A stretch of 47,554 bases of DNA, taken from contig JAGVYU010000013.1 of assembly GCA_018303105.1 (NCBI GenBank), positions 1 through 47,554 on the forward strand, in the 5' to 3' direction. The position numbers and the translations under genes were made by a program. The stretch is from Candidatus Woesearchaeota archaeon. GTDB taxonomy: Archaea; Nanobdellota; Nanobdellia; Woesearchaeales; JAGVYU01. Below are positions 9,629 through 33,985 of the stretch, piece by piece; position 1 is the first letter of the stretch; the number at the start of each line of letters is the position of its first letter. A model generated the notes under the pieces. The model had not been told where the DNA came from, searched no databases, and saw nothing but the letters and a program-made list of their open reading frames with translations.

Positions 9629-9740
9629 TGGGGCTGCTGGGATTTGAACCCAGATCAAAGGCTTTCACCGGGAAGGTTGTGTCAAGCTCATCCCTCCAGT
9701 ACTGGAGGCCCGCATACTAGCCAGGTTGTACTACAGCCCC
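9629..9740 (-). tRNA. tRNA-Trp (CCA anticodon) with a 38-base intron
   Basis: The acceptor stem GGGGCTG/CAGCCCC (9734-9740 and 9630-9636), D arm, T arm (CTGGG/CCCAG) and A73 discriminator (9629) are complete. The loop CTCCAG places CCA at 9703-9705. The 3' anticodon strand (GCCTT) is found only after removing 9664-9701, which puts the intron after position 37, a standard archaeal site. The pairing at the splice sites gives an imperfect bulge-helix-bulge: CTCC of the exon against GGTG of the intron, three of four pairs. One C-U mismatch is left at 27-43. No CCA tail is encoded. A T5 run follows the 3' end. A palindrome (9693-9708) overlaps the anticodon loop and intron start. Confidence 0.92.
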
Positions 9741-31186: not shown

Positions 31187-31441
31187 ATGACACTTGCCAG
31201 ACTAAAGTTGAACACGTACACAAATAAAGTGTTGAATGTTGTGAAAGCTAAATTTGACTTGAAGGATAAATCTGCTGCTTTGAACAGATTTGTTGATGAG
31301 TATGGACAGGAAGTTGTAGAAAAAGAAGCAAATGACGCCTACATAAAGAAAATTCTTGAAGTTGAAGAGAAACACATTCAAAAATATGGAAAGCGAAAAA
31401 TGTCCCTGAAAGAACTTGATGAGCTCTGCGGTGTTGACTAA
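31187..31441 (+). CDS. DUF2683-like antitoxin
   Basis: An 84-residue protein. MTLARLKLNTYTNKVLNVVK followed by a helix (FDLKDKSAALNRFVDEYGQEV) looks like a ribbon-helix-helix DNA-binding start. A long charged helical tail would wrap the toxin. The pattern is that of archaeal DUF2683 antitoxins. It stands directly before the toxin: stop TAA and toxin ATG are adjacent. The pair lies immediately upstream of the diversity-generating retroelement. Confidence 0.75.
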   Translation: MTLARLKLNTYTNKVLNVVKAKFDLKDKSAALNRFVDEYGQEVVEKEANDAYIKKILEVEEKHIQKYGKRKMSLKELDELCGVD

Positions 31442-31714
31442 ATGTTCTCCTTTGACATGAGTGACGAGCTTAAGATCAAGATTCGTAAATTAGTGCATAA
31501 AGACCATAAAAAAGTTGAAATTATAAATAAAAAGATTAAGGAGATCATTCAAAATGACTCAATAAGTATCGATCGCTATAAGAATCTGCGGTATGACTTA
31601 AAACAGTACAAAAGAGTACACATTGACAGGCACTTTGTGCTGACATTTAAGGTGGATAAGCAAAATGAGCATATTCTTTTCATTGATTTTGATCATCATG
31701 ACAGGGTCTATTAA
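31442..31714 (+). CDS. RelE/ParE-superfamily toxin
   Basis: A 90-residue basic protein with the RelE layout: two N-terminal helices (MSDELKIKIRKLVHKDHKKVEIINKK), then strands YKNLRYDLKQYKRVHIDRHFVLTFKV and HILFIDFDHHDRVY. The DHHDRVY ending is typical of archaeal members. RelE toxins cut mRNA on the ribosome; some relatives poison gyrase instead. It starts directly after the antitoxin stop codon, so production is coupled. Confidence 0.8.
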   Translation: MFSFDMSDELKIKIRKLVHKDHKKVEIINKKIKEIIQNDSISIDRYKNLRYDLKQYKRVHIDRHFVLTFKVDKQNEHILFIDFDHHDRVY

Positions 31715-31742: not shown

Positions 31743-31792
31743 TTTATATATAAGTTGTTACTAACTAGTGATTAATGAATGATTTTGGAGGG
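31743..31792 (+). promoter_or_regulatory. promoter and Shine-Dalgarno site of the DGR target gene
   Basis: TTTATATATA (31743-31752) predicts a start near 31773. GGAGGG (31787-31792) is seven bases before the ATG at 31800. The element CATTTATATA also opens the toxin-antitoxin promoter. Confidence 0.6.
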
Positions 31793-31799
31793 ATGTGGT

Positions 31800-32621
31800 A
31801 TGGTTTTGGCTCAGAATGTTGACACGAAAGTTCCGGGGATTGTGGTTCCTGTGTATGTGGAGGGTAAGGAGTTTTATGGTAATACTGTCGCGGATGCGTT
31901 GAAATCTGTTGAGTCTGGTTTTGGGGCGGCGTTTATGCCGCAGCTTGTGGATGCGAGGATTGCTGCTTCTGCTGAGAGTCGGCTTTGGCAGGTGTGGTGG
32001 ACGGCTCCGAGTGTTCAAGCGACGGGAAGAAATAAGGCAGGAAAGCCTGTTGTCGTGTATGCGCATGTTCCTAATTATTTCTCACGTTCAGAAAACATTA
32101 CTCAAGCGGTTAAGAATGGTCTCGTGAATGGGGCGGGAAGGCTTCCTCAGGAAGAATTTCAGCGATTGCTTGACTTAGAAGATAACGCTAATGTGTTTGT
32201 TGTTGAGTATGCTGACCTTCAAAGCTCAGATTCTGGTCTGATTGCTGTGGAGAATGCGTTGCAGCATCCGCAAGTAATTCCTTTCTTAGGGGGGCAAGAA
32301 CGCGCAGAAGCGTACTTGGCAGCGTATGAACGCATGATTGGAAAACACATCAGAGTCTATCACCGAAATGACTTAGGTGATGAACCAGTAGCTCGTCTGT
32401 TGTTCCTTGGCGGCCTCGCCAACCTTAGCGGCCTCGATGGCAGCGACGACCTCAACAGCAGTGCGCGTTTCCTCGGGGTACGTGGTCGTATCGCCGCCGC
32501 AGGCGGCGCGTCGCAAAAAACAGGCCCTAGCCTTGATGCAGTCCTCAAAGCCACTGGAGACTTTGTCGCTCACGTGAACCAGGACGAAATGAGGCGCAGA
32601 GTCTCTGCCCTATATCAATAG
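31800..32621 (+). CDS. DGR target (variable) protein
   Basis: The 273-residue protein carries the variable repeat at residues 199-227. I cannot assign its first ~195 residues (for example KPVVVYAHVPNYFSRSENI and EEFQRLLDLEDNANVFVVEY) to a known family. The VR region (RLLFLG, then G/S/D/L/N positions, then ARFLGVRGR) has the small-residue, aromatic-poor look of a C-type-lectin-fold display loop. Unlike classical DGR targets it continues for about 45 residues after the VR. There is no signal peptide or membrane helix, so it is cytoplasmic or exported by an unknown route. The ATG at 31800 follows a good Shine-Dalgarno site; ATG 31779 is the longer alternative. Confidence 0.85.
   Translation: MVLAQNVDTKVPGIVVPVYVEGKEFYGNTVADALKSVESGFGAAFMPQLVDARIAASAESRLWQVWWTAPSVQATGRNKAGKPVVVYAHVPNYFSRSENITQAVKNGLVNGAGRLPQEEFQRLLDLEDNANVFVVEYADLQSSDSGLIAVENALQHPQVIPFLGGQERAEAYLAAYERMIGKHIRVYHRNDLGDEPVARLLFLGGLANLSGLDGSDDLNSSARFLGVRGRIAAAGGASQKTGPSLDAVLKATGDFVAHVNQDEMRRRVSALYQ
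32394..32480 (+). repeat. DGR variable repeat (VR)
   Basis: This 87-base segment aligns without gaps to the template repeat at 32785-32871. Sixteen positions differ and all are A in the template (12 read G, 2 read C, 2 read T). The ends are A-free and identical: 18 bases at the 5' side, and GCGCGTTTCCTCGG near the 3' side, in the place of the IMH element where mutagenic homing starts. Ten of twelve template Asn codons are recoded to Gly, Leu, Asp or Ser. Confidence 0.96.
32492..32508 (+). repeat. hairpin downstream of the VR
   Basis: CGCCGCC (32492-32498) and GGCGGCG (32502-32508) form a perfect 7-bp stem with a 3-base loop, 12 bases after the VR. DNA hairpins just after the VR are needed for efficient homing in the Bordetella phage DGR, so this is a likely target-recognition structure. 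It lies inside the coding sequence. Confidence 0.75.
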
Positions 32622-32784
32622 ATTTTTATATTCTTATTTTTCTTATTTTATTGTCTTGGTCGCCGCGCCAGCGGCTTCTGGACTACATGCTCTTTTGCTA
32701 CGGCGGCAAACACCGTCATAAAATACAGCCACGACACATCATGTGAAGTGGCAGTGCAACAGACGGCAAGAGAGCTATAGGAAA
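32622..32784 (+). promoter_or_regulatory. spacer before the TR: T-rich terminator/TATA and small hairpin
   Basis: Directly after the target stop is TTTTTATATT (32623-32632) in a T-rich stretch. It could end the target message and also be the TATA box of the TR/RT transcript, which would start near 32653. GCCGC (32662-32666) and GCGGC (32671-32675) form a small hairpin. The spacer is too short for an Avd accessory gene and none is visible. Confidence 0.4.
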
Positions 32785-32871
32785 CGTCTGTTGTTCCTTG
32801 GCAACAACGCCAACAATAGCAACCTCAATGGCAACAACAACCTCAACAACAATGCGCGTTTCCTCGGAATA
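32785..32871 (+). repeat. DGR template repeat (TR)
   Basis: The TR is rich in AAC/AAT codons in the frame of the VR, the classic design in which A mutagenesis of Asn codons reaches many residues without making stop codons. It holds 28 adenines, 16 of which differ in the VR. Three more adenines just upstream (32782-32784) also align to non-A bases, so the true 5' border may be three bases earlier. Homology stops at 32872. The TR ends 24 bases before the RT start codon. Confidence 0.96.
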
Positions 32872-32895
32872 GCCCAGAACCCAAGACACCTTTTA

Positions 32896-33985
32896 ATGAA
32901 AACATACAGTAACCTCTGGCAAGAACTTTGCAGCTACGACAATCTCAAGCTCGCATACAAAAAAGCGAGAAAGCACAAAACCCAGAAGAAATATGTCATT
33001 GAATTTGAGAAAAATCTCAAAACAAATCTTCTAACGCTCCAGAGCGAGCTTCTTCTCCATGCGTACACGCCAAAACCGTTAGTGACATTCATCATCCAAG
33101 ATCCAAAAACAAGAACAATCAGCAAAGCAGACTTTCGCGACCGAGTAATCCATCATGCCCTCTGCAACATCATTGAGCCCATTTTTGAAGAAAGCTTCAT
33201 CTACGACTCCTATGCAAACAGAATTGGTAAGGGAACACTCAAAGCCATTGAGCGCTTTGACACCTTCAAGAGAAAAGTAAGCAGGAACAATACACGGCCA
33301 TGTTTTATTTTAAAAGCCGACATCAAAAAGTATTTTGAAACGGTTGATCATGTAACCCTTTTTTCAATTATCGGAAGACGCATCAAAGATGAAAAAGTAC
33401 TATGGCTTATCAGACGCATTATAGAATCAGCGGGGGGGGGTCCATCGTGGCATGCCGCTCGGCAACCTCACCTCACAATTCTTCGCCAACGTCTACCTCA
33501 ACGAGCTTGACCAGTTCGTAAAACACGAACTAAGAGCAAAATACTACATTCGATACGTCGATGATTTTGTCATCCTTCACACTTCCAAGCAACAGCTTGA
33601 AACTTGGAAACAGGAGATTGAGAAGTTCCTCAAGATACAACTCCTGCTACACCTTCACCCAGATAAAGCAAAAATAGTTCGTTTAGGATCCTCAATCACT
33701 TTTCTGGGATTAAGGATTTTCTACAACCATAAACTTCTCAAAAAATCAAACATGCAAAAAATGAGGAGAAAAATACGAGAACTCACAGAAGAAGATCAGC
33801 AAGGAACTGCTTCCTATGATATCCTGTATGATTATTTAGAAGGATGGGTTGCGTACGCAAAGAATGCAAACACATACCGATTACGAAAGCGAGTCACAGA
33901 GCAGATAAGGAAGGACTACCCGGAAGAATTTTCATCAAAAGAAATTGGTAGATTGGAAAAAGAGAGTGTAGAAAGAGAACAATAA
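32896..33985 (+). CDS. DGR reverse transcriptase, interrupted by a +1 frameshift in a G9 run
   Basis: Read through the frameshift this is a 362-residue RT that copies the TR RNA into mutated cDNA. The palm Asp142 (LKADIKKYF) and Y220-V-D-D223 form the active site. PLGNLTSQ (about 187-194) has the SQ pair that marks DGR enzymes. A thumb region (about 255-362) ends the protein; no maturase, endonuclease or RNase H domain follows. The first frame stops at 33510 and the second is open from before 33452. Removing one of nine G (33432-33440) joins them as SAGGVHRGMPLG. ATG 32896 is favoured by the family start; the upstream frame is also open through the TR from GTG 32743. Confidence 0.9.
33432..33440 (+). 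repeat. poly-G tract (G9) at the RT frameshift
   Basis: Nine consecutive G are at the exact point where the two RT frames meet. Eight would restore the enzyme. Confidence 0.9.

Follow-up and report, generated by a model that had tools for sequence, protein, structure and literature searches.

An AvpA-type diversity-generating retroelement with an apparently phase-variable reverse transcriptase in a woesearchaeal genome

The closest described systems are the DUSEL4 single-cell nanoarchaeal diversity-generating retroelements (DGRs; Paul 2015, PMC4372165; Handa 2016, PMC5006420). AvpA, a nanoarchaeal DGR protein, has a C-type-lectin fold (PMC5006420, PDB 5IOO). Several DGRs and partial DGRs per archaeal genome are already known, and a trinucleotide-loop hairpin was reported earlier for nanoarchaeal DGRs (PMC4372165). 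An always-on DGR would erase every successful variant, and the control of DGR activity is little understood. In bacteria such as Neisseria and Campylobacter, contingency loci contain simple sequence repeats (reviewed in PMC11868660). Here, we describe a DGR of the AvpA type from a Candidatus Woesearchaeota archaeon (assembly GCA_018303105.1, contig JAGVYU010000013.1). The reverse transcriptase (RT) of this DGR is interrupted at a run of nine guanines. The window is the whole stretch of DNA analyzed, 47,554 nt in length.

The window locus is a genuine DGR (Table 1). It has a VR within a protein gene, a TR copy that differs from it at template A, and an IMH/IMH* pair with a hairpin 3′ of the VR. 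An earlier note on this DNA had described an 87-base VR/TR pair with 16 differences confined to template A and none at 59 non-A positions, and the ungapped alignment bears this out (16/16 and 0/59). The note was also right that such a bias is very improbable by chance, but its figure of about 1e-8 becomes 2.6e-10 when recomputed with the hypergeometric distribution. However, not all 16 differences are mutagenic. Because VRs elsewhere in this genome and in relatives also end in GGGGTACG, the differences at 32477 and 32478 are assigned to a fixed IMH versus IMH* signature; TRs read GGAATAG at the IMH* position, where the VRs of other targets have the VR ending just given. The mutagenic differences therefore number 14, all of them on template A (25 A in 81 bases, P = 2.4e-9). 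The 24 TR/VR pairs from the window and related cassettes contain 624 template A, of which 333 differ in the VR (215 G, 94 T and 24 C). Hairpins with a trinucleotide loop and other stem sequences occupy the same place after the VR on contigs C71 and C22 and at loci L028 and L032. Ongoing mutagenesis of the window VR is putative.

Table 1. Coordinates of the DGR features in the window, of neighboring genes, and of further DGR parts in the same genome
Feature	Position	Strand	Basis or remark
Antitoxin-like and YafQ-like toxin genes (context, outside the DGR)	31187..31714	+	TIGR00053, E 7e-15, below curated cut-off
Target gene, AvpA-like variable protein, 273 aa	31800..32621	+	phmmer vs PDB: 5IOO_A
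VR	32394-32480; mutagenic part 32394..32474	+	A-only differences from TR
IMH at VR 3′ end, TTTCCTCGGGGTACGT; TR counterpart, TTTCCTCGGAATAGCC	32468..32483	+	Common to other VRs of this genome and relatives
Hairpin 3′ of VR, CGCCGCC-GCA-GGCGGCG	32492..32508	+	Within target coding sequence
RT-16 RNA, 5′ leader of template	32654..32783	+	Rfam RF03019, 64.6 bits vs gathering score 50
TR	32785-32871; narrower bounds 32785-32867, paired with VR 32394-32476	+	Ungapped match to VR
RT gene, 5′ part	32896..33431	+	Open frame from 32743, probable ATG 32896; RVT_1, E 6e-8
G9 tract, RT out of frame	33432..33440	+	Recurrent site in related RTs
RT gene, 3′ part, motif 4 GMPLGNLTSQ and YVDD	33441..33985	+	RVT_1, E 1.3e-10
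Second DGR RT with C-terminal HTH_40 domain (E 7e-19), contig C22	L018:2643-4154	-	On the opposite strand; open frame
AvpA-like orphan target that has a VR, an IMH and a hairpin, contig C71	L019:3864-4697		Matching TR absent from assembly

The target protein belongs to the AvpA family. In a phmmer search against PDB, its residues 21–273 match residues 7–255 of AvpA (E 1e-73). The alignment spans nearly the entire length, including the tail after the VR, and the VR lies at the same place in both proteins. A profile search recovered AvpA-like targets in dozens of fetched DGR loci. The earlier note had thought this family new, a view that the AvpA match rules out, because the near-full-length alignment and the AvpA-like targets of dozens of related cassettes place it among known proteins. 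An alternative start codon at 31779 would lengthen the target to 280 aa. Targets sought in named genomes by peptide patterns gave no match. The toxin–antitoxin pair that had been proposed next to the target is plausible, its toxin being YafQ-like, but the score lies below the curated cut-off. The surface-glycan setting named in the same note is putative. Elsewhere in the window, Rfam places a tRNA at positions 9629–9740 of the minus strand (46 bits); the match is interrupted by a long insert that is probably an intron. No tRNA was reported in the window by ARAGORN.

The RNA between target and TR scores above the gathering threshold of the RT-16 family. RT-16 matches over the cut-off occur in 80 of 353 genomes of the order, and the RNA adjoins the TR in the window and in most related loci. 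An A-only TR/VR pair is present in 24 of the 32 RT-16 loci examined, and in most of these the TR starts within a few bases of the RNA 3′ end. When the tolerated base was set to C, G or T at the same 32 loci, no TR/VR pair was found. The A-only pairs at RT-16 3′ ends therefore identify this RNA as the leader that precedes the DGR template on its 5′ side in these archaea. The Rfam entry RF03019 is named simply RT-16 RNA, and its position is here placed directly 5′ of a DGR template, which provides a handle for locating archaeal DGR templates without an intact RT. In the window and at loci L050–L079, the RNA occupies the target–RT interval where published schemes draw Avd-like ORFs.

The order target–VR–TR–RT given by the earlier note holds along with the A-only relation, but the RT is not one open frame, and both the RT-16 RNA and the frameshifting tract had been overlooked, as had the additional targets and the second RT elsewhere in the genome. 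A +1 frameshift divides the RT into open frames at 32743–33510 and 33452–33985. It amounts to one surplus G in a nine-G run, positioned in a loop just before RT motif 4. In the G9 state, as assembled, the RT frame is not intact and translation ends ahead of the active-site YVDD, whereas a tract of G8 or G11 yields a single 420-aa RT ORF. Apart from the tract, neither half carries a lesion. Motif 4 fits the DGR pattern LGNxTSQ, and the best PDB match is the DGR RT 8UB7 (E 4e-25). This structure is nearest by both sequence and fold, and a group II intron or retron type of RT was rejected on that ground. The broken frame reflects the present condition of this gene and is not a hallmark of the DGR family. 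The claim of a DGR in a DPANN archaeon is thereby upheld, 8UB7 being the best solved relative of the RT, IMH and hairpin being present, and the cassette type being widespread in the order. Long G runs are not general in this genome, which has just 7 distinct runs of at least eight in 1.3 Mb; one of these lies inside the window RT and another close to where the C22 RT begins. A search with a gapped pattern found no tract-length variants of the window RT among viral contigs. Loss of mismatch repair as a cause of tract instability is unsupported; the genome encodes a MutS-family protein, and instability of the tract is therefore not assured.

Other RTs at RT-16 loci break at the same place, at G runs or CT repeats. 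We surveyed 115 non-redundant archaeal DGR RT loci, defining a tract as a G/C run of at least 8 or at least 7 dinucleotide units. Seventeen tracts lie in 112.7 kb of RT body versus 5 in 485.8 kb of sequence flanking the RT at these loci, a 14.7-fold higher density (Poisson P 1e-14). Codon shuffling of the RT bodies predicts a mean of 0.25 tracts and a maximum of 2. G/C runs of at least nine number 14 in RTs versus 2 outside, all G on the coding strand; A/T runs of that length are absent from RTs and present outside. The internal tracts fall at four sites (L089 numbering), residues 131–136 before motif 1, 177–194 before motif 4, 243–250 after YVDD, and 300–317 in the thumb, with most at the site before motif 4. 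G runs, (CT)n and (AG)n all occur at shared sites. The AlphaFold model of the in-frame relative L089 (mean pLDDT 87), which has 8UB7 as its best PDB match, contains a single stretch below 50. This stretch, residues 182–187, includes the tract-coded glycines. The site after YVDD is a predicted helix, not a loop.

Tract length and reading frame are closely connected in these genes. A frameshift is found in 11 of 17 RTs with a tract versus 3 of 91 without (Fisher P 1e-8), and altering the tract alone restores one full frame in 11 of 11 off RTs. In the frame-unbiased subset of 65 RTs fetched through the RT-16 RNA, the window RT included, 8 tracts are off and 3 on, where random phase expects 2:1. 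Tracts in these RTs exceed chance and their length sets the reading frame, as in genes that are phase-variable by simple sequence repeats. The tract switch is not universal among related archaeal DGR RTs, and 91 of the 108 near full-length RTs lack an internal tract. A few further tracts lie at the RT start codon, as in the C22 RT; other start codons stay in frame. Start tracts of G10 or C10 were seen at L156 (a Moranbacteria DGR with G10), L167 (a Nanoarchaeota) and L112 (an Aenigmatarchaeota), where the length decides the in-frame start codon. Only one tract, at the RT start, was present in 26 bacterial relatives, and one in 62 DGR RTs of viral contigs. Two other irregularities were noted. 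At L197, a C14 run 1051 bases after the start of the RT match, just past the conserved RT part, may be a tract in a C-terminal extension, and the L129 RT has an in-frame tandem duplication of ~20 residues in the thumb.

Comparison of related RTs shows that tracts arose many times. In a quickly built phylogeny of 109 RTs, many of whose forks have weak support, tract presence requires 16 changes. Related RTs differ in repeat and phase at a common site (G14 on versus G10 off; G9 on versus G10 off; (CT)11 versus (CT)9; G10 versus (AG)10). Length and phase therefore differ among related genes, as for phase variation, in comparisons between species only. The off cassettes look recently active. Their TR/VR pairs contain 0–1 non-A mismatches in 66 bases, and the fraction of template A changed is 0.554 in off cassettes versus 0.553 in on cassettes.

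Contig C22 (L018) of the same genome carries a second DGR cassette, with an open 504-aa RT that has an ATG-G8 near its start. One TR lies behind an RT-16 RNA of its own. The cassette has two AvpA-like targets. With IMH and end positions left out, their VRs carry 7 and 11 mutagenic differences, every one of which falls on an A. At L018:4568–10031, these two targets adjoin a MoxR-like ATPase (Walker motifs GVTGVGKT and ALFIDEIN) and a vWA-like protein (DSSASM), an arrangement resembling ternary conflict systems. Both proteins were named from their motifs because searches of Pfam, NCBIfam and PDB gave no significant match. Homologs of the vWA-like protein adjoin AvpA-like targets at L056, L060, L189, L200 and L225, and a homolog of the MoxR-like one does so at L225.

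Together, these results favor, with a probability of roughly 0.7, a nanoarchaeal AvpA-type DGR with an RT that is phase-variable by slipped-strand mispairing, turning the hypermutator on and off. When made, the RT would copy the TR transcribed behind the RT-16 leader, erring at A. With the IMH and the 3′ hairpin as guides, the cDNA would then take the place of the VR, and the ligand-binding face of the AvpA-like protein would change; this homing step is modeled on the Bordetella phage BPP-1 DGR. Slipped-strand mispairing would add bases to or remove them from the G9 tract, which lies in a disordered loop ahead of motif 4, and lineages would flip between RT-off (G9) and RT-on (G8, G11). A rare or transient on-state could diversify the target, and the off-state could then hold a good variant. 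From the survey of sequences we infer that tract length may change within one population, that this would affect mutagenesis and that the cell would benefit. It is also probable that RTs of DPANN archaea, and possibly of some CPR bacteria, repeatedly gained slippery tracts, such that only some cells hypermutate while the rest keep the variant.

Other readings of the broken frame were weighed. Assemblies err most often in the length of homopolymers, the frame here depends on one base and the window RT is otherwise perfect, so the true tract could be G8 and the RT intact, in an ordinary constitutive DGR. We consider this unlikely. The tract is real either way and such RTs are 15-fold enriched in tracts; some frameshifts lie at (CT)n and (AG)n repeats, which are not homopolymers, and the off:on ratio fits random phase. 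From the enrichment, the dinucleotide tracts and the phase ratio it follows that assembly error explains at most the single G here. The dinucleotide tracts also bear on recoding. Polymerases and ribosomes tend to slip on long homopolymers, and transcriptional slippage or ribosomal frameshifting on G9 might constantly yield some full-length RT, making the tract a matter of dose and not a genetic switch. Recoding works poorly at CT and AG repeats, however; many tract lengths are already in frame, and related RTs differ in both tract length and repeat type; recoding thus seems quite improbable.

The window cassette might instead be dying, with a decayed RT, and the C22 RT might now or formerly have acted in trans on its VR. 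The genome does hold another RT, with an open frame, and another RT-16/TR, and incomplete DGRs have been described in related archaea (PMC4372165). Against this, neither RT half has another lesion and the window VR/TR pair is without a non-A difference. Moreover, none of the 11 off RTs of the survey has a second lesion, an absence not expected under decay, and we give decay very little credence. Phase variation of the RT accommodates these observations better than a single base error, recoding or decay.

If phase variation of the RT is true, phase variation and targeted hypermutation are joined in one archaeal locus, and this would explain in general terms why a DGR does not destroy its own successes. 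Such tracts would be a simple, heritable and reversible control that is readable from sequence alone. To our knowledge, slipped-strand phase variation is little described in archaea. We found no report of DGR RT phase variation in the literature searched, mostly papers available without subscription, and in the texts examined that mention both DGR and phase variation, the latter term is unrelated to how a DGR RT is controlled. The case also warns against discarding frameshifted DGR RTs from metagenomes as pseudogenes.

The DGR type and the AvpA target family are known already; what is new is the apparently phase-variable RT. The window DGR is like the DUSEL4 nanoarchaeal DGRs in its homologous target, including the post-VR tail, in IMH, trinucleotide-loop hairpin and the order target–VR–TR–RT, and in having several DGRs or partial DGRs per genome. 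It is unlike them in that the RT is broken by G9 and RT-16 is recognized as the template leader; the window has the RT-16 RNA in the target–RT interval to which the DUSEL4 papers assign Avd-like ORFs. With the Bordetella phage BPP-1 DGR (8UB7–8UBF), it shares RT family and fold, A-specific change, IMH and hairpin. It differs in being cellular and archaeal, with a leader RNA 5′ of the TR and a tract in the RT. No Avd was found in the window genome, where the bAvd and 23S_rRNA_IVP profiles were silent, as they equally were in all controls. The likeness to bacterial contingency loci lies in poly-G or dinucleotide tracts within the coding sequence or at its start and in a random-phase frame ratio. 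Here, however, the switched gene is a targeted mutator, it is archaeal, and the proposed switch is judged from comparison between species.
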